NCBI GenBank assembly: GCA_017309275.1
Contig: JAFKLT010000044.1
Span: 24,654-88,653, forward strand
Length of the DNA stretch: 64,000 bases
DNA from: Sphingomonadales bacterium
GTDB lineage: Bacteria; Pseudomonadota; Alphaproteobacteria; Sphingomonadales; Sphingomonadaceae
Reading direction: 5' to 3'
Shown: positions 18,228 to 36,832 of the stretch, piece after piece
Layout of the letters: each line of letters opens with the position of its first letter
How positions within the stretch are numbered: position 1 is the first letter of the stretch
Notes under the pieces: generated by a model
The model's input: only the letters and a program-made list of their open reading frames with translations
The model's database searches: none
Told to the model about the DNA's origin: nothing
Position numbers and translations under genes: made by a program

Positions 18228-18316
18228 CGGGTTGCGATAGCAGCAAGCGGGCTCGGCCGTCACCTGCCTCCGTGGCGGGCTGTTCCGCCGCGAAGCGCGG
18301 CCCCCTTCGGCGGCCG

Positions 18317-18369
18317 CAGAGGGAGAGGAGAGAGGGGCCAGGTGACGGGTTGAAACCGGGAGAGAGTCT
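18317..18369 (+). promoter_or_regulatory. Structured leader motif, copy A (upstream of DUF932 gene)
   Basis: The leader contains CAGAGGGAGAGG, then after 14 nt TGACGGGTTGAAA-CCGGGAGAGAGTCT, ending 25 nt before the ATG. The same two blocks with the same spacing recur before the ParB-like gene (copy B). A small hairpin GGTT/AACC is possible in the core, and in copy B the equivalent pairs are GGCT/AGCC, a compensatory change. It is probably a transcribed regulatory element or protein-binding site of the mobile backbone. Confidence 0.6.
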
Positions 18370-18394
18370 TCCGGACCCGTCGCGGAGACACGCC

Positions 18395-19588: not shown

Positions 19589-19627
19589 GCAAATCTCACG
19601 GTCGCCGCCGGCGTGGTCCTTTCCCTT

Positions 19628-19682
19628 CAGAGGGAGAGGGCTGCGCCGGAGCCATGACGGGCTGAGAGCCGGGAGAGAGTCT
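19628..19682 (+). promoter_or_regulatory. Structured leader motif, copy B (upstream of ParB-like gene)
   Basis: This repeats the leader of the DUF932 gene: CAGAGGGAGAGG, then after 15 nt TGACGGGCTGAGAG-CCGGGAGAGAGTCT, ending 27 nt before the ATG. The spacers between the blocks are not conserved in sequence, only in length. The conserved hairpin arms GGCT/AGCC covary with copy A. Confidence 0.6.
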
Positions 19683-19709
19683 CGCGGCGGCCTGTCATGG
19701 AGAAGCATC

Positions 19710-21827: not shown

Positions 21828-21845
21828 CGCCACCGACCATCGTTC

Positions 21846-21881
21846 GGGGAGTTCGGCGCTGTGCCGGGCTCCCCATTTTTT
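21846..21881 (+). terminator. Intrinsic terminator after the ParB-like gene
   Basis: GGGGAG...CTCCCC encloses a second inner pairing CGGC/GCCG and is followed by A and six T residues. It begins 19 nt after the stop of the ParB-like gene. Confidence 0.8.
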
Positions 21882-22015
21882 CGCTGGCCCTTGAAATCAG
21901 GACGCTCCGCTCGAACATCGGAGGTGTCCGCCAGGGGCTGCCAGACCGCCGCGTGCCTTCCTGACCCGTTCCTCCGGGCAGGATCGCACGCAGCCTGTCT
22001 TCTGAAGGAGGCCCC

Positions 22016-23050
22016 ATGTCGAGTCCTGCAGCCGAGGTCGCGCGACGCCTCGCCGACGATGCCGAGGCGGTATGCCGCCGATATCTCTCCCATGGACGCC
22101 GCGAGGGACATAATTGGATGGTCGGTGACGTCCGTAATTCGCCGGGCCGCAGCCTTTACGTTCGCCTTTCTGGCACCGCCGACGGTCTTCGGTCCGCTGG
22201 CAAATGGACCGATGCCGCCAGCGGCGATCATGGCGATCTTCTCGATGTCATCGCCGCGAGCTGCGGCCATACATCCTTCCGCGACACGCTCGACGAGGCG
22301 CGCCTCTTTCTGAGCCTGCCTGCGGTCATGCCCGGCGACCGAAACCCGGCTCCGCGTAAAGCACCGCGTGGCACCCCCGAGGCCGCCCGCAGGCTATGGG
22401 CCGGATCGAAGCCGCTCAGCGGCACCCTTGCCCGCGCCTATCTGTCTGCCCGCGCGATCGGCGACCTTCGCGATGCCGAGTGGCTTCGTTTCCATCCCCA
22501 TTGCTTCTATCATCCATCCGAGGACGACGCCCCCGATGTCCGCCGGGCCTGGCCCGCCCTGATCGCGGCGGTCACCGACGAGACGGGAAATGTCACCGGG
22601 GTCCATCGCACCTGGCTTGACGTCGCCGCCTGCGACAAGGCGCCGGTTGCCTATCCGCGGCGCGCCATGGGCCAATTGCTTGGTCATGGTGTTCGGTTCG
22701 GCGCGTCGGCTGCGGTCATGGCGGCGGGCGAAGGCATCGAAACCATCCTGTCCTTGCGGCAGATCACCCCGGCCTTGCCGATGATCGCCGCCCTTTCGGC
22801 AGCCCATCTAGGAGCGCTGAACTTTCCCAGCGGCCTGAAGTGCCTGTATGTCGCGCGCGACGACGACCCGGCGGGTGCGGCCGCCTTTGCGACGCTTTGC
22901 GACCGAGCCCCGCCGCTCGGCATCGAAGTCATCGGGCTCGAAGCGGATCGGGGCGACTTCAACGCCGATCTCATGACACTCGGCCGGCAGCGGATGATCG
23001 GCTCGCTTCGATCCCAGCTCCGGACTGCTGACCTTTCACTCCTGCTCTGA
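22016..23050 (+). CDS. Toprim-domain protein of plasmid/ICE backbone (DUF7146-like)
   Basis: A 344-residue primase-like protein. The N-terminal part has the WTDAASGDHGDLLDVI segment seen in DUF7146/virulence-associated-E-like helicase-primase relatives, but no obvious Cys4 zinc finger. The C-terminal third is a Toprim domain with VMAAGEGIETILSLRQITP (catalytic Glu) and LYVARDDDPAGAAAF (Asp-rich metal site). Toprim proteins of this type accompany DUF932, ParB-like and DUF2493 genes in alphaproteobacterial mobile elements. A GAAGGAGGCCCC ribosome site sits before the ATG. Confidence 0.85.
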   Translation: MSSPAAEVARRLADDAEAVCRRYLSHGRREGHNWMVGDVRNSPGRSLYVRLSGTADGLRSAGKWTDAASGDHGDLLDVIAASCGHTSFRDTLDEARLFLSLPAVMPGDRNPAPRKAPRGTPEAARRLWAGSKPLSGTLARAYLSARAIGDLRDAEWLRFHPHCFYHPSEDDAPDVRRAWPALIAAVTDETGNVTGVHRTWLDVAACDKAPVAYPRRAMGQLLGHGVRFGASAAVMAAGEGIETILSLRQITPALPMIAALSAAHLGALNFPSGLKCLYVARDDDPAGAAAFATLCDRAPPLGIEVIGLEADRGDFNADLMTLGRQRMIGSLRSQLRTADLSLLL

Positions 23051-23367
23051 CGGCTCAGCATCGGCCGGAAGGAAGGCGGGTGAGGGAAGGACCGGCGCTG
23101 ATGCAGCACCACCGGGTGGCCGCGCTCCGGCCTTCGCAAGAGGGCGACTGCGGCGAGCCGCACCGGGCCCGCAATGGCGGGCGGGCGGCTATTTTCCGCA
23201 GGGGCGCGGGGCGCCCCTTTGCATCGCGAAACAAAATAGCCTTCGCCCGCCATCCTCCGCCTTCGGCTTCGGCCGCGGCCTGGGCCACGGTGCAGTTCGG
23301 TACGGCGCGCCGCGAGTGGTCGCCGCGAAGGCCGCGCGAGCGCGGCAAAACCCGACTGGAGACGATC
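23051..23367. other. Intergenic region with large inverted repeat
   Basis: No gene is seen in these 317 bases. The stretch holds several GC-rich hairpins, the strongest being the inverted repeat 23174-23253 described separately. The rest is compositionally ordinary. Confidence 0.6.
23174..23253. repeat. Imperfect inverted repeat with nested hairpin
   Basis: The arms are 23174-23195 and 23233-23253. They pair over ATGGCGGGCG and GGCTATTTT with a 3/2-nt internal loop. The 37-nt loop contains a second stem, GGGGCG-cgggg-CGCCCC. It lies 115 bases upstream of the DUF2493 gene and could be an RNA structure or a protein-binding site. The AT-rich TATTTT end is unusual in this GC-rich sequence. Confidence 0.65.
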
Positions 23368-24300
23368 ATGTTGAGCCCCACCGAACCCGCCGACGATCCT
23401 GCCGACGCCGGCGCCACCCATCTCCTCCTTCAGGAGATGCAGCTCTTTGGACATCGCCCCTTCGAAGACGAACCCGACCCGCGCCCGCTGCCCGATGCCC
23501 GCCTGGCGGCCGGCGCTGTCGCTGATATCTTCGATGCGCTGGCCGGCTGTCTCGACGATACGCGGATAGAGCCCGATCTCGAAGAGCTCCTCTGGAACGT
23601 CGTCAACCTCTTCCACCGCGCGGGGGAGCGGGTCGAACGCAGCCTCGACGACAATGAACAGGCGCAGCGCCGGGCCCAGCGCGAACAGGACGGCAGCGAG
23701 ATCCGGTCGGTCGAGCTCGAACGCCTCGTGCAGCAGGGGATCAGCCTGATCGAACGGCGCGACGCGATGGAATTCTTCCGCGAGAGCGCCGCCGAACAAT
23801 TTCGGACCCATTGCCGCAAGGCCTGGTCACCGCGCGCCGGATCGCGCGCGCAGCACCGGTCGATGACTGCGGCCATGATCGATAGCCGCGACTTCCTCGA
23901 CGCGCGGTTGCGCCAGAAAGCGGCTGCACTTCTTCCCGAGGGCACGCGCATCCTGTTCACCGGCGGCGCCGATGTCGACGATCATAGGGCGATCTGGGAT
24001 GCTCTCGACCGCGCACGCGACCGCCATCCCGATATGATCCTGCTCCATGGGGCGACGCCGACAGGGGCCGAGCGCATCGCCGCCTGCTGGGCCGAAACCC
24101 GCAAAGTGACGCAGGTGGCCTTCCGGCCCGACTGGAGCCGCCATGGCAAGTCCGCGCCGTTCAAGCGCAACGACCGGATGCTCGAAGCGCTGCCGGTCGG
24201 GGTCATCATCTTCCCCGGCACCGGCATTCAGGACAATCTCGCCGACAAGGCTGCGAAGATCGGCCTTCCAGTCTGGGATTTTCGCAAGCGCGGCCGATGA
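23368..24300 (+). CDS. DUF2493 protein of plasmid/ICE backbone
   Basis: A 310-residue protein with the C-terminal DUF2493 domain, a Rossmann-like SLOG/YpsA-related fold (about residues 185-305: RILFTGGADVDDHRAIWDALDRARDRHPDMILLHGATPTGAERIAACWAE, then FKRNDRMLEALPVGVIIFPGTG). The GATPTGAER loop resembles the nucleotide-ligand site of SLOG proteins. The start MLSPTEPADDP at 23368 is chosen because the longer frame covers the inverted repeat. It is the last of the four backbone genes. SLOG domains bind nucleotides or nucleic acids, but the role here is unknown. Confidence 0.85.
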   Translation: MLSPTEPADDPADAGATHLLLQEMQLFGHRPFEDEPDPRPLPDARLAAGAVADIFDALAGCLDDTRIEPDLEELLWNVVNLFHRAGERVERSLDDNEQAQRRAQREQDGSEIRSVELERLVQQGISLIERRDAMEFFRESAAEQFRTHCRKAWSPRAGSRAQHRSMTAAMIDSRDFLDARLRQKAAALLPEGTRILFTGGADVDDHRAIWDALDRARDRHPDMILLHGATPTGAERIAACWAETRKVTQVAFRPDWSRHGKSAPFKRNDRMLEALPVGVIIFPGTGIQDNLADKAAKIGLPVWDFRKRGR

Positions 24301-24543: not shown

Positions 24544-25287
24544 ATGCCGACGATGGACGCTGCGCATGCTTTTGCGCTCGACGTCACGCGGGTGAAGGAT
24601 GCGGCGGGTCTGGCCGATCTGCTGGCGGAAGCGTGTGCGCGCATGGGCTGTTCCTGGTTCGCGCTGAGCCATCACGTCGACTTCCTCGCCGCGCCGGACA
24701 GGGGCGTTCGCGTCCACAACTATCCCGAGGACTGGGCGCGCTGGTTCGACGAGCGCGGCCTTGGACTCACCGATCCGGTGCATCGTGCCAGCCACCGCAG
24801 CCTCGAAGGTTTCTTCTGGCGCAACATGAAGCCGCTTTCGGGCGAACGCCCTGAGGACGAACTGGTTCTCAGCGAGGCGCAGCGGCACGGGATCGGTGAC
24901 GGGCTTACCATACCGGCGCACATCCCGGGCGAGGCGCATGGCTCGGTGTCCTTCGCCTGGACGCCTGGGATCGCCGCCAATGATATGGCGCTGCTCTTTG
25001 CTAGAATGATCGGTGGGCCGGCCTTCGAAGCCGCGCGCCTGCTCGCCAATCCCGAACTCGCGCAGGTCGGGCCGCGGCTGACGGACCGCCAGCGCGAATG
25101 CCTGATCCTGTCGGCCAAGGGGAACAGCGCTCCGAAGGTCGGACGGATCCTCGATCTCAGTCCCGACACGGTTCGCGAGCATCTTCGCAACGCGCGGCAG
25201 CGTTACGACGCGAATGGCGGGATCACGCTGACGGTGCGCGCGCTTTATGCCGGCGACCTCAGCTACGAGGATATCGCCAAGCGCTGA
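24544..25287 (+). CDS. luxR: LuxR family quorum-sensing regulator
   Basis: A 247-residue regulator. The N-terminal two thirds is an autoinducer-binding domain (FALSHHVDF, the NYPEDWARWFDERGLGLTDPVH signature with conserved Trp, Tyr and Asp residues, and PAHIPGEAHGSVSFAW). The C-terminus is a LuxR helix-turn-helix (LTDRQRECLILSAKGNSAPKVGRILDLSPDTVREHLRNARQRY). It should bind an acyl-homoserine lactone made by the LuxI encoded 91 bases downstream on the same strand. Confidence 0.92.
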   Translation: MPTMDAAHAFALDVTRVKDAAGLADLLAEACARMGCSWFALSHHVDFLAAPDRGVRVHNYPEDWARWFDERGLGLTDPVHRASHRSLEGFFWRNMKPLSGERPEDELVLSEAQRHGIGDGLTIPAHIPGEAHGSVSFAWTPGIAANDMALLFARMIGGPAFEAARLLANPELAQVGPRLTDRQRECLILSAKGNSAPKVGRILDLSPDTVREHLRNARQRYDANGGITLTVRALYAGDLSYEDIAKR

Positions 25288-25378
25288 ACTTTTTTCGCCG
25301 ACACCCCCCGATCGTGCTATGGTGGAGCGGCAAAAAGCCGTTCAATTGGATGGTCTCTTTCGAAAAGGAGACACATCC

Positions 25379-25996
25379 ATGCTTTCGGTAATCGACCATT
25401 CCAACCGCGCGAACGAGCATCAATTGCTTCGCGCGATGTTCGAGGCGCGCAAGCGCGTCTTCATCGATCTTCTGAAATGGGACCTGCCGGTGCTCGCCGA
25501 CCGGTTCGAGATCGATCATTTCGACGATCCCCACGCGACCTATCTGATCGTCGGCGACCAAGACGGCGGGCATCTCGCTTCGGCGCGCCTCCTTCCCACC
25601 ACGCGCCCGGCTCTTCTCGATGGTCTCTTCCCCGGCCTCGTTAACGGCATCCCGCCGTCCGGTCCCGACATCTTCGAAATCACCCGCTTCTGCCTGTCGC
25701 CGGGGATCGGTGCGCGCCAGCGCCGCACCGCGCGCGACACGCTTCTTGTCGGGCTGGTCGATTATGCGCTCGCCAACGGCATCCGCTCTTACACCGGTGT
25801 CGCCGAGCTCGACTGGTTCGCGCAGATCCGGACCTTCGGCTGGGACTGCACGGCGCTCGGCGAACCCGGCATTTACGACGGCCGCGCGCTGACCTCGCTG
25901 CGGATCGAGATCGACGCCGACACCCCCGCAAGGCTCAAGGCGGCGGGGATTGTTTCGGGCAGCGCCGCGACACCGGTCGCGGCCGACGCAGCGTGA
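25379..25996 (+). CDS. luxI: Acyl-homoserine-lactone synthase (LuxI family)
   Basis: A 205-residue LuxI-type synthase that joins S-adenosylmethionine to an acyl carrier protein-borne acyl chain. The conserved core is present: ARKRVFIDLLKWDLP with R and F/W, then DRFEIDHFDDPHATYLIV (the conserved Asp pair), and SARLLPTTRPALL with the conserved Arg. The C-terminal acyl-pocket half follows FEITRFCLSPG. Start MLSVIDHSNRANEHQLL at 25379 fits the family, and GAAAAGGAGAC precedes it. Acyl-chain length cannot be read from sequence. Confidence 0.93.
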   Translation: MLSVIDHSNRANEHQLLRAMFEARKRVFIDLLKWDLPVLADRFEIDHFDDPHATYLIVGDQDGGHLASARLLPTTRPALLDGLFPGLVNGIPPSGPDIFEITRFCLSPGIGARQRRTARDTLLVGLVDYALANGIRSYTGVAELDWFAQIRTFGWDCTALGEPGIYDGRALTSLRIEIDADTPARLKAAGIVSGSAATPVAADAA

Positions 25997-26009: not shown

Positions 26010-26921
26010 ATGATCACCAATATCGCTCCAGTCGATAGCCATCAGCCACCCTCTGCTCCGATGCGGGCGCTCAAGGAAGACGGCTATGCGATCGTCCGCA
26101 ACGCCGTTCCCGCCGAGTTGATCGCGGCGATCGATCGCGACCTCGATCCGCGCTACGCCGCGACGCCCTTTTGCGAGGGCGGCTTCTATGGCGAGCGCAC
26201 CAAGCGCTTCGGCCGCCTGCTCATCCGCTCGCCGCACGTCGGCGCGCTCGTCATGAACCCGGCGATCCTCGCTCTCGCCGAGGCCGCGCTCGGCGACTGG
26301 TGCGAGCGTATTCAGCTAAATCTCGCCCAGGCGATCGAGCTGCATCCGGGAGCGCTTCCGCAGTTCCCGCATCGCGATCAAGATATGTGGCAGGGCACGC
26401 TCGGAGAAGTCGAGTATCTCGTGAACGTGATGTGGCCGCTGACGCCCTTCACCACCGAGAATGGCGCCACGATCATCTGGCCGAAAAGCCATGGGCTCGA
26501 GGCGCTCGTCGAGGAGCCGGCGGAAGAGCCCATTGTTGCCGAGACCGTGCCGGGCGATGCCATCATCTTCCTGGGTTCGACGCTGCACGGCGCTGGCGGC
26601 AATTGCAGCCCGTCGGTTCGGCGCGGGATCATCATCAGCTACTGCCTCGGCTGGCTGAAACCCTATGAGAACCAGTGGCTCGCCTATCCGCCGGACGTCG
26701 CGAAGGACTTTCCACCCGAGCTGGCGGCCTTGACCGGTTATGTCCAGCATCGCCCAAATCTCGGCAACTTCGAGGGTCAGTGTCCCTCGATCCTATTCCG
26801 CGGCTATCCCCCTGACCCGATCGCCGCCGTGGATGCGCTCCGGCCCGATCAGCAGGCGCTTCTTGCCGACTATATCGGCGACCGACGATCGGCGGGCGGA
26901 GACGGGACGCTCGCGGCATGA
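26010..26921 (+). CDS. Phytanoyl-CoA dioxygenase (PhyH) family protein
   Basis: A 303-residue 2-oxoglutarate/Fe(II) dioxygenase of the PhyH family. Likely iron ligands are the H-x-D in FPHRDQDMWQG and the distal His in STLHGAGGN, with Arg in SVRRGIII as the oxoglutarate partner. PhyH genes beside luxI are known from several Sphingomonadaceae. Position 13 bases after luxI with a good GAAAGGAG site indicates the same transcript. It may modify the acyl-homoserine lactone or another metabolite, but the substrate is unknown. The start at 26010 excludes an upstream extension that overlaps luxI. Confidence 0.88.
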   Translation: MITNIAPVDSHQPPSAPMRALKEDGYAIVRNAVPAELIAAIDRDLDPRYAATPFCEGGFYGERTKRFGRLLIRSPHVGALVMNPAILALAEAALGDWCERIQLNLAQAIELHPGALPQFPHRDQDMWQGTLGEVEYLVNVMWPLTPFTTENGATIIWPKSHGLEALVEEPAEEPIVAETVPGDAIIFLGSTLHGAGGNCSPSVRRGIIISYCLGWLKPYENQWLAYPPDVAKDFPPELAALTGYVQHRPNLGNFEGQCPSILFRGYPPDPIAAVDALRPDQQALLADYIGDRRSAGGDGTLAA

Positions 26922-27556
26922 GCCCGGGCACCACGATGGAGCGGGTCTATCTGGACCTCAAGGCGCGTATCCTGTCGGGCACCTATCCGCCCGGTACGCG
27001 CCTAGAGGCGGCGCAGCTCGCAAAGTCGCTGGCGGCCAGCGCTACCCCGGTTCGCGACGCCCTGTATCGCCTGTCGGGCGAGCGGATTATAGAGAGCTGG
27101 CACCAGGAGGGGTTTCGGCAGCCCCTCCTCAATGAGGCGGACTTGGTCGAACTCTATTGGTGGACCGGCGCTCTCCTTTCGCTGGCGCTGAAAGGGAGGA
27201 CGCCGAGGCCCGATTTGCCCGGTGGTCTAATCTCGCTCGCGAATCACCAGGCCTATCCCGAGGGACTCGATGGCCTCTTCCGGACCATTGCAATCGGCAG
27301 CAGCAATGGCGAACTTCGCGCTTCCATCATCAATTGTGTCGAGCGAAGCATGACATTCCGCACATTGGAGGCTCGTGTCGACGGGTCCGCCAATGATGCG
27401 CTCACCGCGATGGCGGACGATTACCGGTTCGGCCGATGGAGCGCTTTGCGCAGCAAAATCACGCGCTTCCATCGCCGCCGCGCCTCCTATGCCGGCCGTG
27501 TCGCGGCCGAGATCCGGCGGCGGTCCGAGCCGCTGGATAATATTCGGAGAATATGA
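26918..27556 (+). CDS. GntR family transcriptional regulator
   Basis: A 212-residue GntR regulator. The N-terminal winged helix is typical (MERVYLDLKARILSGTYPPGTRLEAAQLAKSLAASATPVRDALYRLSGERIIES). The C-terminal effector part is alpha-helical and FCD-like but short and without the clear metal-binding His set. Its start overlaps the PhyH stop by 4 nt (ATGA), so it is coupled to the quorum-sensing operon. Only 80 bases separate it from the lasso precursor gene, making that gene a likely target. Confidence 0.88.
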   Translation: MSPGTTMERVYLDLKARILSGTYPPGTRLEAAQLAKSLAASATPVRDALYRLSGERIIESWHQEGFRQPLLNEADLVELYWWTGALLSLALKGRTPRPDLPGGLISLANHQAYPEGLDGLFRTIAIGSSNGELRASIINCVERSMTFRTLEARVDGSANDALTAMADDYRFGRWSALRSKITRFHRRRASYAGRVAAEIRRRSEPLDNIRRI

Positions 27557-27636
27557 GTCGTATTTAATTCTTATACGGCGCGGCCTCCCTAGCTTTGAAG
27601 GGGCCGCAATTCCGCGGCATCATGGAGGAAACGATC

Positions 27637-27759
27637 ATGGATCGCGAAACCAACGACCTCGTCGAGCTCGGCAGCGTCAGCGCAGACACCCTCGGCGATT
27701 TCGGCCCCCCGGTCGAAATCGGCGGGAAGGACCTGCAGAACGGCATCAGCCTCGACTGA
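27637..27759 (+). CDS. Lasso peptide precursor (A protein)
   Basis: A 40-residue precursor too short for usual ORF calling, preceded by GGAGG 8 bases before the ATG. The leader MDRETNDLVELGSVSADTL (19 residues) has the family's LVELGSVS pattern and the required Thr two residues before cleavage. The core of 21 residues starts with Gly: ring GDFGPPVE, then tail IGGKDLQNGISLD. Gly1 amine and Glu8 side chain would form an 8-residue macrolactam ring. The next two genes encode the matching maturation enzymes. The tail lacks very bulky aromatic plug residues, so Lys, Leu, Gln or Asn would have to lock the thread. Mass and topology are predictions. Confidence 0.88.
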   Translation: MDRETNDLVELGSVSADTLGDFGPPVEIGGKDLQNGISLD

Positions 27760-27814: not shown

Positions 27815-28465
27815 ATGAGCTGGAAACTCGCGCCCGGCGTGGGCTTTTGCACCGTTGGCCCGGATATGATCTTTCTCGATCTCCGGCGCGACCGCTACTT
27901 CCTTATGACCGATGTCCGGCGCGCGGCATTCGATCGGCTCCTCGCCGGCGAGCCCAATGACAGCGATGCTATGACGCTGCTCGTCGACACCGGCCTGTTC
28001 GTGCGCAGCGATTTGGGGTTTCGCATCGAGGCGCCCGCATTCGACGTTCCGGCAGACGATCTCAGCCGCCCGGACTCCAGGCGGAGCGGCCTTCGATCGA
28101 TCTTCGGCGCCTGGTGCGCATTGGCTTGGGCGGCGCGGGCGCTGAAGCCCGACCGGCTACCTTCGACCATAGAGCAACTGCTCCGCGACAAGCTGCTTCT
28201 GGACAGAAGCGGGCAAGAGAGTGAACTGCGAGCGTTGGGGACGGCATTCGCCCGCGCGCGGACCTTCGTTCCGATTGCGCCGCGGTGCCTTGTCGATTCG
28301 CTCGCCCTATACCGGATGGCCCTGCGCAGGAGCCTCGCGCCAACGCTGGTCTTCGGAGTGCGCACCAATCCCTTCGCGGCGCATTGCTGGCTCCAGTCGG
28401 GCGCATGTGTCCTGACGGGAACGGCGGAGGAAGCCCGAAACTATCAGCCGATTCTGGTCGTATGA
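27815..28465 (+). CDS. Lasso peptide leader peptidase with fused recognition domain (B protein)
   Basis: A 216-residue B protein. Residues 1-75 are a PqqD-like RRE (B1) that binds the leader (KLAPGVGFCTVGPDMIFLDLRRDRYFLMTD). Residues 120-216 are the transglutaminase-like cysteine protease B2, with C158 in APRCLVDSLALYRMALRR and H190 in VRTNPFAAHCWLQ. The usual catalytic Asp after the VL- strand is not obvious here (VLTGTAEE). It cleaves the leader after Thr-Leu. The stop overlaps the cyclase start (ATGA). The gene order A-B-C differs from the A-C-B order common in proteobacterial lasso loci. Confidence 0.87.
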   Translation: MSWKLAPGVGFCTVGPDMIFLDLRRDRYFLMTDVRRAAFDRLLAGEPNDSDAMTLLVDTGLFVRSDLGFRIEAPAFDVPADDLSRPDSRRSGLRSIFGAWCALAWAARALKPDRLPSTIEQLLRDKLLLDRSGQESELRALGTAFARARTFVPIAPRCLVDSLALYRMALRRSLAPTLVFGVRTNPFAAHCWLQSGACVLTGTAEEARNYQPILVV

Positions 28466-30154
28466 TGCGGCGCGCTATCCTCGGGTTTCTGGGCGGCGAC
28501 CCTTTGGCGACAGATCTTGCGTTGGCAGCCGGTAGGCATGGTCTGAGTTCGTTGGACCCGCTCGTTCCAAACCTGGCGCTTTTCGCAGGTAAAGGCATCG
28601 GTATCGCGCTCCGCGATCCGGGACGCCTGGTTCTCGGGGATTGCTTCGAGGATTCCGCCTCGACCGCTTGGGGCAATTATCTCGAGTTGATGGCGGACCA
28701 GGCCGAAGGCCTGACGATCAGCCGGGCTCCGATCACCGGGATGCCGTTATACTGGCTGGAGGCGGCGGGAGGAGTTCTGCTCTTCTCGCACCTCGAGCTG
28801 ATTGAAGGCCTGGACGTAGCGCTCTCGGTCGATGAGGAATATCTTCGTTACCTCCTGTCATTCAGCAACTTTCGCACGGCGAGAACTGGGCTGTCGGGGG
28901 CCCAGGAGCTTCTGCCGGGAACGGCGCTCATCCTTGGCCGCGGCATTCCGGCAACTGAGACGTTCTGGTCGCCATGGCCGCATGCGCGAGGTCGCGTGGG
29001 CGAAAGTGATGCCCCCATGCTTCTTGAGCAACGCATTCGCGCATGCGTTACTGCTTGGGCCAACAGTCGCGACAGCATCGTTGTCGAGTTGTCCGGCGGC
29101 CTCGACAGCTCGATCGTCGCCGCGGCGTTGGCGCAGGGCGGACACACCTTTTCCGCCGCGACGATCGCGACTGCCAGCCCCGATGGCGACGAACGACGCT
29201 TTGCTCGCGCCGTCGCCAAAAGCTGCGGCATCGACCTCGTCGAATATGTGCATGGCGACGCTGTGCTCGACCTCACCGCAGGCCCCGCGTTCCTGGCACC
29301 GCGCCCGGCAACCTATGGCGTCCTCGCGGGGATCGACGCGGCTCTCGGTTCCGCGACCAATGAGATGTCGGGGGGGCAGCATCTTTACCGGGATCGGTGG
29401 AGACAATGTCTTCGCGATCAATCGGTCGATCATGCCGGCGCTCGACGCGTTGCTCTCGCTCGGTCCGCGCCCGCGCAGCCTTGCCGCTCTCGGCGACTGC
29501 GCTCGCCTCTGCAATGCAACCGTCTGGAGGGCCGCACGGGCCGTCTGGCGGCAATGGCGCGCCGGACGAGATGCCGATTGGCCTCGCGACGATGGCTATT
29601 GCGTGCGGACCATGCTCCCCGATGAGCCGTTGGCGCGCCCATGGGACGAGGTCGTGGATGACCTTCCTGTCGGCAAGATCCGTCACGTCCAATCCATCCT
29701 GCGCATTGGCGACTTTCTGGATCGTCCCGGGCGCTGGTACGGACGCGATGTCGTCGCGCCGCTGTTGTCGCAGCCGCTGGTCGAGCTTTGTCTCGCGATT
29801 CCGTCTTGGGCTTGGGTCGCCGGCGGCCGCGATCGGGCGGTCGCCCGTGCGGCCTTTGCAGACCATCTCCCCGGCATCGTCGCCTGGCGCCGCAACAAGG
29901 GACGGCTCGAGACGATGTGCGCCGAAGCGTTCCTGGCGCAGCGCCGCGCCCTTGCGCGGATATTGCTGGAGGGTCGGCTCGCACGCGAGGGTCTGATCGA
30001 TCGGGACAGGGTTGAAGCCTATCTGGCGCGCGAGCGGATCGAGGGCGACTATGACTATTTCCGCTTGCTCGAACTCGCCGATATCGAGCTTTGGATAGTA
30101 TCGGTCGCCGGCTTGGGCGCCGGGAAGTTCAGGCCGGTCCAACGCGCATATTGA
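28462..30154 (+). pseudogene. Lasso macrolactam synthetase (C protein), frameshifted
   Basis: An asparagine-synthetase-like cyclase that adenylates the ring Glu and closes the lactam. The N-terminal glutaminase-like domain lacks the nucleophilic Cys2, as in known C proteins (start MMRRAILGFLGGDPL). The ATP-binding loop is S211-GGLDSS. The frame breaks in a G7 run at 29370-29376 (about residue 302). Without one G, EMSGG continues into SIFTGIGGDNVFAINR and on to the stop at 30154, restoring about 563 residues. As written, translation stops at 29625. The cause may be sequencing error, mutation or slippage. The 3' end overlaps the convergent isopeptidase by 100 bases. Confidence 0.85.
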
Positions 30155-32025
30155 TCTGCCTTGGCAGGATCGGGATCGATGTAGCCCTGCAGCCAGAAGC
30201 GGAACCAGTCGAGGTTGCGCTGGTACACAGCAAGCTTCTGTCTCGGCTCGGCCTTGATGTGCGGGGCGAAGGGAAAGACGTGGAGTTCACCCTTTCCGCT
30301 CGCGGAGAGGCGGGCCTGCAGCTCGGGCGAAAGTCGGGCCTCCTGCTCCGGGAGCTGCATCAGCACGACGGCGGTGATCTTGTCGACCTGGAGCGAGGGC
30401 GAGCGCCGCTTCCAATCGGCTGCATCGATGTCGGGCGCGCCGAGACCCCATTGAGTCTCGAGATTCTGGCGGAAGAAATCGCGTCCGATGCCGGCGTTGA
30501 ACCAGTAATAGGCGGGCTCGGCCTGCACCGACGCGATCGAGACCGCACTCAGAAGCTTGCTGTGGGTCGCTGTCCACATCGCAACCTCGCTGCCGAAACT
30601 GAGACCGCCCATCCCGACGCGGCCGGGGTCGACAAGCCCGCGGCGATCCAGCTCCGCTACAGCAGCGCGCACCGCTGCGAGGCCCAGCTCATAACGGGCT
30701 TCGGCTTTCGCCCCGCCCGATGGCAGCTGGTTGATGCAAAGCGCGGCAATCCCGCTGGCGGCCAAGGCGCGAAGTGGCCACTCATTGCCGAGCCCGCCGC
30801 GAAGGTAACCGGCGCAGCGATAGTAAGTGATGAAAAGCGGCAGCCGTCCGGGGAACTTCGGGCGGACGAGCCAACCCGACGCACGGCTGCCGCCCACCTG
30901 CCACTCGATCGCCTCGGTGAGAAGATCGTCGTGGTCAGGAAGGTCGTTGGGTCGGTCGAGGACGAGGGTCCCGCTGCCATCCAGCGCAATTCGCTGCAGT
31001 TGTGGAGGCATGGCGGCGCTCTCGGCTACGCAGAAGGCCGCCGTTTGCGACGCCGCACATGGCGCCATCTCACCGCCGCCGCTCAAAAGGCCTGGGCTGG
31101 CCGCGAGGCGCGTCAGGCCGGTCGCCTTACCCCAGAGAAAAACGCTCTGACGAACTTTCCGGTCGCGCGTCGTCACCACGAAACGTCCATCGCCGACTGC
31201 CATTCCCTTCCAGATTTTTGGCGCGTCGGGATCGCCGCAGGGTGCTTCCACAGCGCAGATGCCGGCTTGCGACGCGGCCGCGCGAAAAGGCTCGGGAAGC
31301 GGTTGCGGCGATGGTCGGAGAAGCTCCGCCTCGATAGCGTGGGCGGGTCGCTCTCTCGCCGTAGTCGGATCCCGACGAACAATCTGTCGCGGCAATCGGT
31401 CGAGGAGCGCCTCCCGATCGAACCAGTCGCCATTGAGACGCTGGCTTGCGGGTCGGCCCGCGATCATTGCCCCTCGATAAAGCGTCTGCGCGAGATCGAC
31501 CCGTCCATCGGCCAAAATGCCGCTGTCCCGCTCATTCTCTTCGGCCCGCGCGATCGCGGCACGCGAGGGCCCGAGTTCGAATATGATGCCGCCATCGGGG
31601 GCGACTGCAAAGCGTTCGATATCGGCGTCGCGAACGATCAATGGTGCGAGGGCGCCGCTGGGGCGGCCTTCCCATAGTCCCGTGGCGCCGTCCACCCGCG
31701 CGCGGAAATAGAAGCGGTCGCTTTCCGGCGACCAGGCGGCTGAGCCCGCCTCGACGATCCCGGTTCCATTCCAGCTCGCATGGCCGCCATCGCCGATCCT
31801 CCGTGGCGGTGTGGCTCCATCGGTGCCGACGAGATACCAGGCGGTCTCAATCTGTCCGCTCATGGTCGACGGGCGCTCGCGGCGGTAGAGCAGCCAGCGC
31901 CCGTCGGGAGAGACCGCGAGCCCAGAAAAGTCGGTCATCTCTACGAGCTCGCGGGGACTTGTCTGGGCGGCGGCCGGCGAAGCCGCCGCAAGGAAAACCG
32001 CCGCCCAGACCGCTTGTCTCACCAC
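30055..32025 (-). CDS. Lasso peptide isopeptidase (prolyl-oligopeptidase fold)
   Basis: A 656-residue secreted or periplasmic serine hydrolase with signal peptide MVRQAVWAAVFLAAASPAAA, an N-terminal beta-propeller and a C-terminal alpha/beta-hydrolase domain. The nucleophile is S476 in GGLSFGSEVAMW, the His is H589 in FAPHIKAEPRQKLAVYQRNLDWF, and a Glu near 560 (PEQEARLS) is in the position of the catalytic acid of AtxE2-type enzymes. This His segment is characteristic of lasso isopeptidases, which cut the macrolactam bond. It overlaps the TonB receptor gene by 7 nt and faces the lasso ABC genes, matching astexin-type loci. Confidence 0.88.
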   Translation of the reverse strand: MVRQAVWAAVFLAAASPAAAQTSPRELVEMTDFSGLAVSPDGRWLLYRRERPSTMSGQIETAWYLVGTDGATPPRRIGDGGHASWNGTGIVEAGSAAWSPESDRFYFRARVDGATGLWEGRPSGALAPLIVRDADIERFAVAPDGGIIFELGPSRAAIARAEENERDSGILADGRVDLAQTLYRGAMIAGRPASQRLNGDWFDREALLDRLPRQIVRRDPTTARERPAHAIEAELLRPSPQPLPEPFRAAASQAGICAVEAPCGDPDAPKIWKGMAVGDGRFVVTTRDRKVRQSVFLWGKATGLTRLAASPGLLSGGGEMAPCAASQTAAFCVAESAAMPPQLQRIALDGSGTLVLDRPNDLPDHDDLLTEAIEWQVGGSRASGWLVRPKFPGRLPLFITYYRCAGYLRGGLGNEWPLRALAASGIAALCINQLPSGGAKAEARYELGLAAVRAAVAELDRRGLVDPGRVGMGGLSFGSEVAMWTATHSKLLSAVSIASVQAEPAYYWFNAGIGRDFFRQNLETQWGLGAPDIDAADWKRRSPSLQVDKITAVVLMQLPEQEARLSPELQARLSASGKGELHVFPFAPHIKAEPRQKLAVYQRNLDWFRFWLQGYIDPDPAKADQYARWTGLNFPAPKPATDTIQSSISASSSKRK

Positions 32026-34949
32026 CGGATCGTGGCCTGCAGCGAGATGGTGCGTCCGAGCGGATTCGCCTTTTCGGGGTCATAGGCGAGCGCCGATGTA
32101 TTGGTCCGGTTGTTCACATAGGGCGGATCGCGATCGAACAGATTGAGGATGCTCAGCCCCAGTTGCAGGCCGCGTTCATTGTCATCACCGCCGAAGCGTT
32201 GGGCGAGGCTGAGGTCGAACGTTGTCCAGGACGATACGCGCTCCGGGACCGCGGGGATCTGGTTGAGATAGCCGCCGACATAGTTGGCGAAGAGGGTCGC
32301 CGCAAAACCTCCGCGCGACCAGCCGGCGCGTCCGCGCAGCCGCCACTTCGCCGGATTTGCGAATGTGCCCACGACGTCCACCGCCGGCGTGCCCGGCGTA
32401 AGCTGCCGATTGATCCGGAAGATGTGGCTTCCCGACAGACCAAGGTCAATCTGGCCGCCGGCGAGTTCCGTTGCGTAGCCAAGATCGAAATCGAGCCCGG
32501 TCTGGCGCATGGCGGACAGGTTGCGGACCTGACCGTCGAGAATGGCATCGACATCGCCCGGCGCGAGGCCAAGCGGATTGGTGAAGGTCGGGAACGAGAA
32601 ATAATAAGCGAGAAGTTCGGCCGACGGATTCTCGGTTACCACGCCGCCGAACAGGTCGCGGCGGGACAGGAAGCGAAGATAATCCTCGCTGACCGAGCCG
32701 ATACGGTCGCGATAGTCGACATCATAATAGGTGACCGACGCTTTAAGCCCGCGGATCGACGGGGGCGCGACGTCGAGGCCGACCGTCCAGGTGGTAGCTT
32801 TCTCCGGCTTGATGCCGGGACCGTAGCCGAAGAGCCCGATGACGTTGGCGGTGCCTGTCGGCGAGCTCGGGTCGGGTACGCGCAGCGTCGTATAGTTCGA
32901 GACAGCCGGGCCAATCAGTTCGTCGAACGCAGGTGCGCGGAACGAGGTCCCGTAGCTGCCGCGCACAGCAATGCCGGGGAGCGCTTCCCAGCGGAGCCCG
33001 AGCGTCGGGTTGGTCGTGCGCCCGACGTCGCTATAGTCCTCGATCCGGCCTGCAAGCGAAAGGTCGAGCCGCTCGATGCCGGCAACGCTGTTGTCGGGAC
33101 CAAAGAGCGGCACGAGAATCTCGGCATATGCGGAGCGTACGTGGCGCGGCCCCGGCAGCCCGGTGAGCGCGGTAGTGCTGGGCGTCGCACGGCTCAGGTC
33201 GTTGACCGTGAAATTCTCATAGCGTTCGCGGCGGTACTCGGCGCCGAAGGCGACCCGGATGTCGCCGCCGGGCAGGCGAATGAGCGAACCATCGACGCGA
33301 AGCGCCGCGGACCAGCTTTCATAATCGTCGCGCGATCCGATGCTTCCGCGAATGGCCGCTATGGTCGCGGGATTGTTCGCGGTTCCGTTACCGAAAACAT
33401 TGAATGCCGTCGCGCGGTTGGTGTCCGCGATCGCCGCCGCAAGGCGCGCGCGGTTCGGAATGTTGATACTGTCGCTCCGGCTCTTCTGGCGCCCATAGGC
33501 GCCGCCAAGCTGGATCCGCCACGCGCCGATCGCCTGCTCGAGGCTGGCCGAACTGCTGATGCCTCGCACCCGTCCCGTGTCGATGGGCGCGCCGAGATCA
33601 TTCGCGAAATTATAGTTCACGCTGACTTGTTGCCGCGTCCCGATAGGATCGACGTAGAAGGGGTTGGTCACCGGCACCCGCACGATGCTGAGATACTGGT
33701 TGAGCGCAACTTTCCGATAGTCGCGCTGCGCAGCGAGCGTGCTTGCCCGGAACGTGAGGCTGTCCGTAAGGTCGAACTCGAGCGCGGCATAGGCGCTGTG
33801 GATGCGCTGGCGAGGAAGGAGATCGCTCGCCGCGCGGCGGTCTCCCGGATTGCGAGTTCCAGCGACGAGCTGGCCCGGAGTCAGCGCCGTCCCGTTCTGC
33901 CCGGCCGGAATCGCGAAGGTCTGCCCATTAGCCGCGGTGATCGTCCCCGGCACGGCGAACAGCGAGCGGTAGTCCGGCCCACCGAATGGACGCAGGTCTT
34001 CGGTCGCAAAATCCCGGTCTGCTGCGGCAAGCGCGTCCCGTTGGCTGAACTGGTAGGCGAGCACGAGATGGCCGCGGTCCCATTTTCGTCCGAATAGCTG
34101 GCCGATCTGGACTTCGCCCATATCCCCATCAGCGGTGCCGACCCGAAAGAGGGTTTCGGCTCCCTCGAACTGGTTCCTCAGCCGGATGTTCACGACGCCG
34201 GCGACAGCATCGGCTCCGTAGATCGCCGAGGCGCCATCGGTCAGGATCTCGACCCGGTCGATCGCGCCTAGCGGGATCAGCGATACGTCGGCGAATACGC
34301 CTCCTAGCCCGCCGAGGGCGGGCCTGCTGCCGTCGATCAGAACAAGGGTCGAGGATGGGCCCAGTCCGCGCAGGTTGACGCTCGAACCATAGGTGCCGTC
34401 GGTTCCCGCGCCGTTTCGAGTGGTCGCTCCGAGGGTCGTCTCGTTAGGTCCGCCCGCAAAGGATTGCGGGAGCGCTTGAAGAAGCTGCTGCACCGATCCC
34501 GTGCCGCTCTTCTCGATATCGGCGCGACCAAGCGTGACGACTGGCGATCCCACCGGTCCGGCGCCGCGAATGCGCGTGCCGGTCACAACGATCGCTTCGT
34601 TGACCCCGTCAGTCGATCCCGCCTCCGCCGCATCGCCGTTTCCCGCGCGCAGCACCCACGCGCCTTCCACCAGTTCAATGGTCAAGCCTGTGCCGGAAAG
34701 GAGGCGGGAAAGGGCGGCGTCGGGAGAGAGGCGCCCGCGGACACGGTTGCTGCGTCGGCCTTCGAGCAGGCTCGAAGCCGCGATGACCTCGCGGCCGGAA
34801 ATGTCCGAATATTTGCGAAGTGCGTCGCTAAGGCGCTGGGCCTCGATATTGTATGTCAGCTCGCCCGTCTGCGCGCACGCGCTGGGTGCATAGAGTGCGG
34901 TCGCCGATACGCCCGAAGCCAGAACGGCCGCGAAAAATTTCATCGTCAT
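32019..34949 (-). CDS. TonB-dependent receptor with N-terminal STN signalling domain
   Basis: A 976-residue outer-membrane transporter. After the signal peptide comes a secretin/TonB short N-terminal (STN) domain (about residues 30-105: LTYNIEAQRLSDALRKYSDISGREVIAAS), used to signal to a FecR-type anti-sigma factor. The plug domain follows (EAIVVTGTRIRG, VNLRGLGPSSTLVLIDGSRP, VEILTDGASAIYGADAVAGVVNI), then a beta-barrel ending ISLQATIRW. It lies between fecR and the isopeptidase, so its likely ligand is the lasso peptide made by the facing genes. That ligand is inferred from context. Confidence 0.92.
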   Translation of the reverse strand: MTMKFFAAVLASGVSATALYAPSACAQTGELTYNIEAQRLSDALRKYSDISGREVIAASSLLEGRRSNRVRGRLSPDAALSRLLSGTGLTIELVEGAWVLRAGNGDAAEAGSTDGVNEAIVVTGTRIRGAGPVGSPVVTLGRADIEKSGTGSVQQLLQALPQSFAGGPNETTLGATTRNGAGTDGTYGSSVNLRGLGPSSTLVLIDGSRPALGGLGGVFADVSLIPLGAIDRVEILTDGASAIYGADAVAGVVNIRLRNQFEGAETLFRVGTADGDMGEVQIGQLFGRKWDRGHLVLAYQFSQRDALAAADRDFATEDLRPFGGPDYRSLFAVPGTITAANGQTFAIPAGQNGTALTPGQLVAGTRNPGDRRAASDLLPRQRIHSAYAALEFDLTDSLTFRASTLAAQRDYRKVALNQYLSIVRVPVTNPFYVDPIGTRQQVSVNYNFANDLGAPIDTGRVRGISSSASLEQAIGAWRIQLGGAYGRQKSRSDSINIPNRARLAAAIADTNRATAFNVFGNGTANNPATIAAIRGSIGSRDDYESWSAALRVDGSLIRLPGGDIRVAFGAEYRRERYENFTVNDLSRATPSTTALTGLPGPRHVRSAYAEILVPLFGPDNSVAGIERLDLSLAGRIEDYSDVGRTTNPTLGLRWEALPGIAVRGSYGTSFRAPAFDELIGPAVSNYTTLRVPDPSSPTGTANVIGLFGYGPGIKPEKATTWTVGLDVAPPSIRGLKASVTYYDVDYRDRIGSVSEDYLRFLSRRDLFGGVVTENPSAELLAYYFSFPTFTNPLGLAPGDVDAILDGQVRNLSAMRQTGLDFDLGYATELAGGQIDLGLSGSHIFRINRQLTPGTPAVDVVGTFANPAKWRLRGRAGWSRGGFAATLFANYVGGYLNQIPAVPERVSSWTTFDLSLAQRFGGDDNERGLQLGLSILNLFDRDPPYVNNRTNTSALAYDPEKANPLGRTISLQATIRW

Positions 34950-35036: not shown

Positions 35037-35957
35037 CTACTCGGATTTCGCGCCCAGAATTGGTCCGTTCGCACCGAACTCGACCTTGAGATCGAGCGCG
35101 GCGCCGAGCTTCAGTGCAAGTTTCCGGGCATCGGTCATGTCGAAGCGCCCCGTCACCTGCAGCGATGCCAACGCCGGATCGGCCAAGCTGATCTTGACGC
35201 CATTCTCGCGGCCCGCGCGGTCGAGAATCGCACCAAGCGGGAGATTGTCGGCCCACAGCGATTTGGCCGGGGCGTTCGCCTCCTCGCTCTTGATCGGCTG
35301 GGGACCGGTCGACCTGACCTCGGCGCGTTCGCCGGGACGGAGGCGAAGTGCCTTTCCGCCTTCGAGGCGCCGCACTTCGACCGAGCCTTCGACCAGCGCG
35401 ATGCGCGGAACATCCGCGCGGAGATCGACCTCGAAGATGGTGCCGAGCGCGCGCGTGACCGAATCTCCCGCCTCGACGAGGAAGGGACGCGACGCGTCGT
35501 GTGCGACCTCGAACCTGGCGCGGCCGTCATGCAGAATGACGCGGCGTTCGCCGTCCGAGAAGCGCGTCTCGATGCGGGCGCCGTCCATCAGCGTCACGCG
35601 CGTCCCATCGGCGAGCTGGCTCTCGCCTTGCGCCGAATTGGTGGCGATGATCGGCTGATCGCTGTCGCGACCGAGCAGATACCATGCGAACCCGACCGCG
35701 ATCACCGCGGCGAGTATCGTCGCGAATGCCCATCGCCGCCCGCCGGGTTCTCGCTCCCGGGCATCGGCCCGCACATCGGAGGCGATCCGTGCAGTCGACA
35801 TGTCTCCCGCCCAAGTCCAATTGTCGCGCGCTTCGTCATAGGCCTTGGCATTGTCCGGCTTCGCCAGCCACTCGTCGAACGCTTCCCGGTGCAGCTCGGC
35901 ATCGGGGCCCATCATCTTGTCGAGCCAGGCGGTGGCTTCGCTCTCGGCGCGGCTCAC
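35037..35957 (-). CDS. FecR family anti-sigma / sigma regulator
   Basis: A 306-residue FecR protein. The cytoplasmic N-terminal part binds the sigma factor (EATAWLDKMMGPDAELHREAFDEWLAKPDNAKAYDEA), one membrane helix follows (WAFATILAAVIAVGFAWYLL), and the periplasmic FecR domain carries SQLADGTRVTLMDGARIETRFSDGERRVIL and FLVEAGDSVTRALGTIFEVDL. A C-terminal STN-like segment lies near residues 245-300. Its GTG start overlaps the sigma-factor stop (GTGA). With the STN receptor downstream it forms a complete surface-signalling relay. Confidence 0.92.
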   Translation of the reverse strand: MSRAESEATAWLDKMMGPDAELHREAFDEWLAKPDNAKAYDEARDNWTWAGDMSTARIASDVRADAREREPGGRRWAFATILAAVIAVGFAWYLLGRDSDQPIIATNSAQGESQLADGTRVTLMDGARIETRFSDGERRVILHDGRARFEVAHDASRPFLVEAGDSVTRALGTIFEVDLRADVPRIALVEGSVEVRRLEGGKALRLRPGERAEVRSTGPQPIKSEEANAPAKSLWADNLPLGAILDRAGRENGVKISLADPALASLQVTGRFDMTDARKLALKLGAALDLKVEFGANGPILGAKSE

Positions 35958-36532
35958 TGCTTACCCCGCGCGCGTTTGATGGCCGCAAGGGCTTTGGTCA
36001 TGTGGCTTTCGACCGTCTTCACGCTGATTCCCTTGATTCGAGCGATCTCGGGATAGCGTAGTCCTTCGAAGCGATGCATCAGGAAAATCTCGCGCGTGAG
36101 CGGAGATAGCCTCGAAATGGCTCTTTCTGCCCGGCGCAGGACGTCGCGCGCCTCGAGCGCGGCGTGCGGGTCGCTTGATCCCGCATGTTCATCGCTGAAG
36201 CTGTCGTGCTGTGACCGGTGACGGCGCCCGTCGGCGCGACCATATTCGGCGAGCAGCATCCGGGCGCTCTTCACGAGATAGGCGCCGGGGCCTTCGACCA
36301 GCGCAGCGAGGCCGCCGCGCGCACTCGCAAAGCGGCTGAAGACTTCCTGCACAAGGTCGCCGACATCCTGGGTCGGCGCACGGCTCTTGAAGAAGCGGAT
36401 TATTTGCGGCCGGTGTTCGGAGTAGATCGCCTCGATGCGCGCCGAGCGCCCGACCCGCTCCCAATCCTCTGGCGGCAAGGGATCGCCGCCGGCAACACCG
36501 GGTCGCTCGCTGTCCTTGTCCTCGAAGTCCAT
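35954..36532 (-). CDS. ECF sigma factor (FecI-like)
   Basis: A 192-residue sigma-70 family factor. Region 2 is RIEAIYSEHRPQIIRFFKSRAPTQDVGDLVQEVFSRF and region 4 is ISRLSPLTREIFLMHRFEGLRYPEIARIKGISVKTVESHMTKALAAI. The ATG at 36532 is preferred to an upstream TTG at 36598, which would add 22 poorly conserved residues. It should direct transcription of the fecR-receptor-isopeptidase operon, and possibly the lasso genes, when the receptor senses its ligand. Confidence 0.9.
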   Translation of the reverse strand: MDFEDKDSERPGVAGGDPLPPEDWERVGRSARIEAIYSEHRPQIIRFFKSRAPTQDVGDLVQEVFSRFASARGGLAALVEGPGAYLVKSARMLLAEYGRADGRRHRSQHDSFSDEHAGSSDPHAALEARDVLRRAERAISRLSPLTREIFLMHRFEGLRYPEIARIKGISVKTVESHMTKALAAIKRARGKQ

Positions 36533-36832
36533 ACCTGCCGCCTTCCCGTTCGGGACAAAGGCGGCAAGCCGGGCGTTGAGAACTTGCTTAGCGAACAAGC
36601 GCCGCCGCCTTTAGCCCGAGGGCTTGGACATGCGCAGCGGCCACCCGGCAGGATGGAATAGGAAAACTAAGCTAAGCAGGTTCTCACGCCTGGCACCGTG
36701 CGCCTTGCCCGATGCACTTCAAAGCATAGCCTTGCCGCTGCGGCATGCAAGCCGACTGCACCGAGATAGATCCAGATCGAGTCTATTCTCCGGAAACGAC
36801 GGCAGAAGAGCTTCGGTGCTGCCGGGCGTCGA

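Follow-up and report, generated by a model that had tools for sequence, protein, structure and literature searches.

The benenodin/subterisin lasso peptides (NCBIfam NF033522, Pfam PF24178), among which the ring of benenodin-1 closes on Asp8, come from clusters that also encode an isopeptidase. The layout of such isopeptidase-type clusters is nearly constant, with gntR, the precursor gene A and the enzyme genes B and C on one side and the isopeptidase gene E, a receptor gene and a sigma/anti-sigma pair on the other, and their isopeptidases are reported to accept no lasso other than the one from the same cluster (PMC9266682). In a 2022 review the function of these peptides was described as enigmatic (PMC9266682). 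An adjacency of luxI and phyH in sphingomonads has been reported earlier, and a quorum-regulated phyH operon was proposed (PMC3704786, PMC4288048). The STN domains of receptors of the kind considered here bind the anti-sigma factor (PMC11637429).

We analysed a window, i.e. a whole stretch of DNA of 64,000 nucleotides, in which these elements occur side by side. Its lasso locus shares with the benenodin/subterisin peptides the leader motif, the Thr at position -2, Gly1, the eight-residue ring, the isopeptidase and the lack of any ABC transporter gene seen nearby, but it differs from them in a core that is new to the literature searched, in a ring predicted to close at Glu8 and in the presence of luxR-luxI-phyH upstream. 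As in the astexin, benenodin and sphingopyxin clusters (PMC9266682), gntR precedes A, B and C, and E, the receptor gene and the sigma/anti-sigma genes are convergent; unlike them, the cluster is joined to an AHL quorum unit. The order luxR-luxI-phyH is that of the sphingomonad luxI-phyH loci (PMC3704786, PMC4288048), but no lasso genes are named in the available parts of those sources, whereas the pair in the window continues into a lasso cluster. Sphingocin of Sphingomonas BPH also belongs to the benenodin family, with A-B-C and divergent E and receptor genes, but its core differs and lux genes are not mentioned for it in the available part of PMC11006600. Finally, the STN receptor, the FecR-like protein and the ECF sigma factor are those of Fec/Fox/Fpv-type cell-surface signalling, although the proposed ligand would here be a ribosomal lasso, and the genes that make this ligand are exchanged along with the specificity for it. 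Pyoverdine and FpvA may offer a parallel. In the literature consulted we met no account of a receptor-matched exchange of blocks linked to quorum genes, which would make it a new variation on a known cluster type.

The lasso cluster of the window

The genes luxR, luxI, phyH and gntR lie 5' of A on the same strand, and the order luxR-luxI-phyH-gntR-A-B-C is convergent with E, the TonB-dependent receptor gene, fecR and fecI (Table 1). The luxI reading frame opens at 25247, and its start was picked from the ribosome-binding site and from relatives.

Table 1. Features of the lasso locus and its surroundings, in window coordinates
Feature	Positions	Strand	Evidence or remark
luxR-type regulator (conserved frame)	24544..25287	+	PF03472 Autoind_bind 2e-24, GerE 8e-8
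luxI-type AHL synthase (conserved frame)	25379..25996	+	PF00765 4.5e-19
phyH, Fe(II)/2-oxoglutarate-type dioxygenase (conserved frame)	26010..26921	+	PF05721 4.8e-22
gntR-type regulator (frame, at times exchanged)	26918..27556	+	PF00392 5.8e-15
Conserved short dyad GGCCGC-AATTCC-GCGGCA	27606..27623	+	just 5' of A; pairing scan, 59 loci
A, leader	27637..27693	+	19 codons, Thr at -2
A, core	27694..27756	+	predicted 8-residue ring GDFGPPVE (Gly1-Glu8), tail IGGKDLQNGISLD; stop 27757-27759
B, leader peptidase, B2-type domain in C part (exchanged block)	27815..28465	+	NF033537 2e-22, PF13471 1.6e-20
C, N-terminal piece of macrolactam synthetase, first frame (exchanged block)	28465..29370	+	PF00733 2.4e-11
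C, C-terminal piece, other frame; the break is close to seven consecutive G	29384..30154	+	PF00733 1.7e-12
E, lasso isopeptidase, signal-peptide-like N terminus (exchanged block)	30055..32025	-	NF033523, 5txc, 5jrk
TonB-dependent receptor; residues 1-101 frame, plug and barrel (118-976) exchanged block	32019..34949	-	STN, Plug, TonB_dep_Rec
Signalling (STN) domain within the receptor, at residues 56-101; exchange edge near its end	34647..34784	-	PF07660 3e-9
fecR-type anti-sigma factor / signal transducer (frame)	35037..35957	-	PF04773 1e-15
fecI-type ECF sigma factor (frame); start uncertain	35954..36598	-	PF08281 2.6e-17, TIGR02937

A sequence-only reading of this DNA had called a 40-codon gene with a good ribosome site a lasso precursor, and the present analysis bears this out. 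The frame of A (27637-27759, forward strand, 40 codons) has GGAGGA about 9 nt 5' of its ATG and translates into the leader MDRETNDLVELGSVSADTL and the core GDFGPPVEIGGKDLQNGISLD; the latter has 21 residues, GDFGPPVE followed by the tail. The precursor scores 34.4 bits against PF24178 'Subterisin' (cut-off 27 bits) and 33.2 bits, barely above the curated cut-off of 33, against NF033522 'benenodin family lasso peptide'. The translation has Thr at -2, Gly1 and Glu8 where that reading had placed them, and a Thr(-2), a Gly1 and an acid within core positions 7-9 are the marks of the lasso family. Judged from its sequence, A is a genuine precursor of the benenodin/subterisin family. For the threaded Gly1-Glu8 macrolactam, which is a prediction, the calculated monoisotopic mass is 2109.038 and the expected [M+H]+ 2110.045.

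Precursor matches at E<=0.1 were found in 35 of 80 genomes of Sphingopyxis, the genus of the window, and the 21-residue core in six of the 80, the window's own counted. Two of these genomes (G032 and G053) match the window over the full 40 residues, the bearers of the identical precursor being Sphingopyxis sp. H115 (L050), where A-B-C is intact, and one MAG; three others (G013, G020, G051) match it in the core alone. Compared with one same-core locus (L034), the window has 15 nucleotide changes in the leader and five in the core, every one of the latter synonymous, and the B proteins share only 54% identity despite the identical core. That A might be a chance ORF is ruled out by the identical precursors in other genomes and by the synonymous core changes. 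The earlier description of the core as unfamiliar stands as far as the ring is concerned: GDFGPPVE had no match in the open-licence papers searched, from which two known control cores were retrieved. The core does, however, occur in five other genomes, and the peptide family has been described. Among 72,556 plasmid records the precursor had no match. Taken alone, the window peptide is one more member, with a new core, of an already described lasso family.

Across 13 aligned precursors T18, G20 and E27 are invariant, and so are Gly11 and Gly17 of the core, which may give shape to the loop and tail. In the 44 distinct cores obtained from 43 loci the first residue is always Gly and the last either Asp or Glu, and the ring acid is Glu8 in 41 of them and Glu9 in three from other genera; our precursor finder demanded T-x-G and an acid at core positions 7-9, so that Gly1 and the acid are there partly by construction, while the acid being Glu and the final Asp/Glu were outside its criteria. 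The tail of the window core has no aromatic residue, as had been remarked; this has a precedent in benenodin-1, which is held first at Glu14/Gln15 and subsequently by Lys17 (PMC13352647). As a guess, the steric lock of the window lasso may lie at Asp13-Gln15.

The enzymes complete the cluster with one exception. B is intact (NF033537, 79.9 against a curated 33 bits), as is E (NF033523, 474 against a curated 400 bits). E can be aligned to two isopeptidases of solved structure, AtxE2 (5txc, 4e-31) and SpI-IsoP (5jrk, 4e-15); its Ser476 is aligned to Ser in 5txc and to Ala in 5txe. Among 62 aligned E rows Ser476 is conserved in 61, His589 in all and Glu560 in 56, with Asp in its place in five, i.e. 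an AtxE2-like isopeptidase with a Ser-His-Glu/Asp triad as in isopeptidase-type clusters. C, the pieces of which were searched separately with the frame left unrepaired, is split between two frames in the window, a run of seven G lying between its N- and C-terminal pieces. The flanking B, C and isopeptidase genes had been said to make the call firm, which holds for B and E but not for C: B is whole and C is split. The two C pieces stand in one frame in 59 of the 60 relatives in which both were found, the sole exception being L099. The split may be a sequencing slip in a 121-contig draft or a true loss, and the window strain, or the assembly, may be without product. With C in a single frame in 59 of 60 relatives, we do not favour a programmed frameshift.

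The gntR gene, the TonB-dependent receptor gene and the sigma/anti-sigma pair occupy the places that are usual in isopeptidase-type clusters. By gene content, the STN receptor, FecR and the ECF sigma factor in one cluster make up a cell-surface signalling system. The sequence-only reading had named neither the break in C nor the quorum-sensing genes, the STN/FecR/FecI unit or the block exchange.

Linkage of the cluster to the quorum-sensing genes

LuxI and LuxR homologues adjoin each other and by gene content form a quorum-sensing unit. In the 80 Sphingopyxis genomes, 62 of 80 E rows were used, three second fragments of counted genes and 15 rows at 28-34% identity having been dropped; G020:C24 and G020:C5, both among the 62, appear to be the two parts of a single gene. 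There were 127 luxI rows and 120 phyH rows, with 10 weak or fragment phyH rows dropped. A same-strand luxI-phyH pair lies within 12 kb of 56 of the 62 E rows, convergent in every case, and E is mostly 3.1-3.4 kb from phyH in these linked rows. Two unlinked rows (G004, G023) have luxI at 3.1-3.2 kb and no phyH. The other four are G051:C71, with phyH at the contig edge, G020:C5, half a gene at the edge of its contig, G053, on a MAG contig that is rearranged, and G005:C99. Seen from the other side, 54 of the 118 luxI-phyH pairs in these genomes continue into a lasso cluster and 64 have no E nearby, so that the quorum unit is the older or the wider partner. PhyH as a dedicated lasso-modifying enzyme is not favoured in view of the same 64 pairs.

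Beyond the genus, a family sample of 249 genomes, in which at most four candidates per genome were scored, had E matches at 1e-60 in seven genomes, five of them outside Sphingopyxis. The order luxR-luxI-phyH-gntR-B-C against E-receptor-fecR-fecI is kept in four of these five extra-genus loci (L078-L081), not in L082. Lux genes were not found in the isopeptidase-type cluster of Sphingomonas leidyi (L069), and two Caulobacter plasmids, with E matches of 40-42% identity, carry a lasso cluster for which no lux genes are listed. Given L069, L082 and these plasmids, the quorum link is therefore not essential to isopeptidase-type clusters.

Several loci have features of their own. On both Caulobacter plasmids the lasso cluster adjoins radC, and on one there are also ParB and toprim genes. 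In the window, positions 18272-24297, 5' of luxR, hold DUF932-like, ParB, Toprim and SLOG-type genes that resemble the backbone of a plasmid or integrative element. One locus (L044, 8459-9441) has luxR-luxI-phyH-gntR, two A genes and B, with no match to C, E, the receptor, fecR or fecI within 19 kb. In a MAG contig (L031, 10897-11315) receptor residues 1-81 run into E residues 585-645, through a large deletion or a misassembly.

Non-coding elements bear on whether the lux genes control the lasso. The region upstream of A is conserved, with promoter-like and dyad elements. A dyad of the type TGCCGC-AATTCC-GCGGCA pairs in six of six positions in 22 of 59 loci (the window and 58 relatives) and in five of six in 33, in a scan that kept the best dyad per locus, so that chance pairing is possible; in one locus, with TGTCGC/GCGACA, both arms are changed. 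The dyad may be a DNA operator or an RNA hairpin. At window positions 25288-25378, 5' of luxI, a conserved CACCCCCC...TATGG and TTCAATTGG are present in most of 29 loci compared, and this block is a possible LuxR site or promoter. The CACCCCC...TATGG block found before luxI is absent upstream of A, and by eye we saw no lux-box-like copy upstream of A in the aligned regions. The lux genes might thus be mere neighbours on a shared mobile segment, without control of the lasso. A has its own conserved upstream region and lacks the luxI-type block, plasmid-type genes stand upstream of luxR, and the Caulobacter plasmids carry the cluster with no lux genes listed, all of which would fit; we nevertheless consider mere neighbourhood unlikely, though by no means negligible, in the face of a layout fixed in 56 of 62 Sphingopyxis rows and in four of five loci from other genera of the family.

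Exchange of a block within a conserved frame

A gene-by-gene comparison of 62 loci (B present in 61) identified ten relatives, in ten genomes, that share the genes of the window's flanks, the frame, and carry other cassettes between them (L041, L066, L068, L088, L089, L091-L095). Their identity to the window is 97-100% in luxR, 87-98% in luxI, 87-96% in phyH, 94-97% in fecR, 89-98% in fecI and 95-98% in receptor residues 46-101, and 84-99% in gntR with the exception of L092 and L093 (66%). In the same ten loci it is 26-50% for B, 31-54% for the C pieces, 34-54% for E and 49-68% for the plug and barrel (residues 118-976). Besides the window's own, five cassette types occur among them, including an S. 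terrae type (L066) and a G009 type (L088). By these sequence comparisons, A-B-C-E and the receptor plug and barrel are exchanged between species as one unit, while luxR-luxI-phyH, STN, fecR, fecI and usually gntR stay put, at 84-100% identity. Since the block also takes B and C along, constraints other than receptor matching could hold it together.

On the left, DNA identity drops at 27622 and 27629, just 5' of the start codon, or at 27678-27690, shortly before the core starts at 27694. In two loci the left edge lies inside gntR, at 27145, and gntR is within the exchanged part in L092 and L093. On the right, identity drops across receptor residues 84-117, the STN domain comprising residues 56-101. 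In four of the ten loci the blastn alignment sets in again at 34543-34609; in loci of milder divergence the right block continues at about 80% identity, and the edge there rests on the profile. In the available part of PMC9266682 we found no description of a block being exchanged with one edge close to where STN and plug meet.

Two groups were examined in trees (quick LG+G4, 43 rows after seven near-duplicates were dropped from 50; the tested groups were picked after identities were known). The window, L032, L041, L088, L089, L091 and L092 form one clade in the luxR+luxI+fecR and receptor 1-101 trees, and the AU test rejects that clade for E (p 3e-7), B+C (7e-64) and the plug-barrel (0.002). 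Conversely, the same-core group of the window, L032 and L034-L037, in which L036 and L037 have a near-identical core, is one clade in the E, B+C and plug-barrel trees and is rejected for the frame (p 7e-5) and receptor 1-101 (1e-9). The trees of cassette and frame modules conflict in both directions.

Rank correlations of identity in 50 complete loci (1225 pairs) reach 0.83 both for STN with fecR and for STN with luxR. The plug-barrel correlates with B at 0.71, with the two C pieces at 0.77 and 0.75, with E at 0.68 and with fecR at 0.53, and the value for E with fecR is 0.21. Once the frame is taken into account, the similarity of cores across 37 non-redundant loci has partial correlations of 0.68 with the C-terminal C piece, 0.62 with B, 0.61 with E and 0.59 with the plug-barrel, and weak ones with STN (0.22), gntR (0.19) and fecI (0.16). 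STN tracks fecR given the cassette (0.82), and given the frame its correlation with E is 0.00 (p 0.43). With the cassette accounted for, a correlation of 0.58 between plug-barrel and fecR is left; together with the small values of the core with STN, gntR and fecI, this makes the module split strong, not perfect.

The same pattern might arise without exchange if the middle genes merely evolved far faster than their flanks. Lasso biosynthesis genes do diverge fast, as the 54% identity of B in the same-core L034 illustrates. We judge this account very improbable, however, in view of sharp edges within one gene, the reciprocal tree conflict and a same-core group the flanks of which (fecR 45-47%) are more diverged than its core, E and receptor.

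A possible path from quorum to private peptide signal

Gene content, fixed layout, luxI-phyH linkage and block exchange with its edges are read directly from the loci. We infer expression control, export, binding, signalling and a role as message from this arrangement. The lasso is probably made in response to quorum, as a private ligand for the TonB-dependent receptor on the opposite strand, and the sequence patterns suggest a peptide that is a message matched to its receptor.

LuxI would produce an AHL, and LuxR bound to it would switch on luxI-phyH-gntR as well as, directly or via GntR, A-B-C. B would cleave behind Thr(-2)-Leu(-1) to remove the leader, C would join Gly1 to Glu8, and the lasso would leave the cell through an exporter encoded outside the cluster, near which no exporter was found and no ABC transporter gene was seen. 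The receptor plug and barrel would bind and import the lasso, the STN domain would signal to FecR, and FecI, once released, would switch on the receptor and E. E would then cleave the isopeptide bond, linearising the lasso and ending the signal. Species would change the message by swapping core, enzymes, E, plug and barrel together while keeping the AHL unit, STN, FecR and FecI. The exchange edges make sense on these terms: the ligand-matching parts (core, E, plug, barrel and the makers) move, and the FecR-matching STN stays. The split C may be a dead end for this path in the window.

The exchange pattern would fit equally a lasso that is a carrier, metallophore-like or for other cargo, which would be exported, loaded, re-imported by the receptor and opened by E, with a pyoverdine-like diversification guarding against cheaters. 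The receptor-FecR-FecI logic is shared with siderophore systems, release of cargo by the isopeptidase has already been proposed (PMC9266682), and insertion in the B2 gene of a sphingomonad lasso cluster accompanied loss of phenanthrene use (PMC11006600). Yet the 44 cores have no constant metal-binding set except acids, and AHL control is less expected for a nutrient carrier; we regard a carrier role as distinctly unlikely. Still less credence is given to a narrow bacteriocin that enters rivals by the matching receptor, E conferring immunity by linearising it. Bacteriocin systems often show both quorum control and a diversification matched to receptors, and the two or three clusters with different cores that can coexist in one genome would suit such a weapon. 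An entry receptor and a positive signalling unit beside the producer genes would, however, increase self-exposure, and isopeptidase-type lassos other than astexin-1 are reported to be without antimicrobial activity (PMC9266682).

Returning to the lasso as a message, at least two isopeptidase rows per genome were present in G013, G014, G018, G028, G039, G070, G071 and others, some with different cores. Several private lasso-receptor pairs, our comparisons suggest, would be able to coexist in one cell. More tentatively, as a picture that falls somewhat short of probable, Sphingopyxis may practise a two-stage communication with exchangeable pherotypes, in which an AHL leads to a lasso pheromone, a private receptor would read it through FecR/FecI, a private isopeptidase would erase it, and block swaps with crossovers near the leader/core junction and the STN end would rewire partners.

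Our results highlight block exchange as evolutionary evidence for two sets of matched parts, the lasso with its isopeptidase and the plug and barrel of its receptor, and the STN domain with FecR/FecI. Natural chimeras thereby offer a test of the ligand-receptor idea, and linkage to luxI-phyH suggests AHL as a condition under which silent clusters may switch on.
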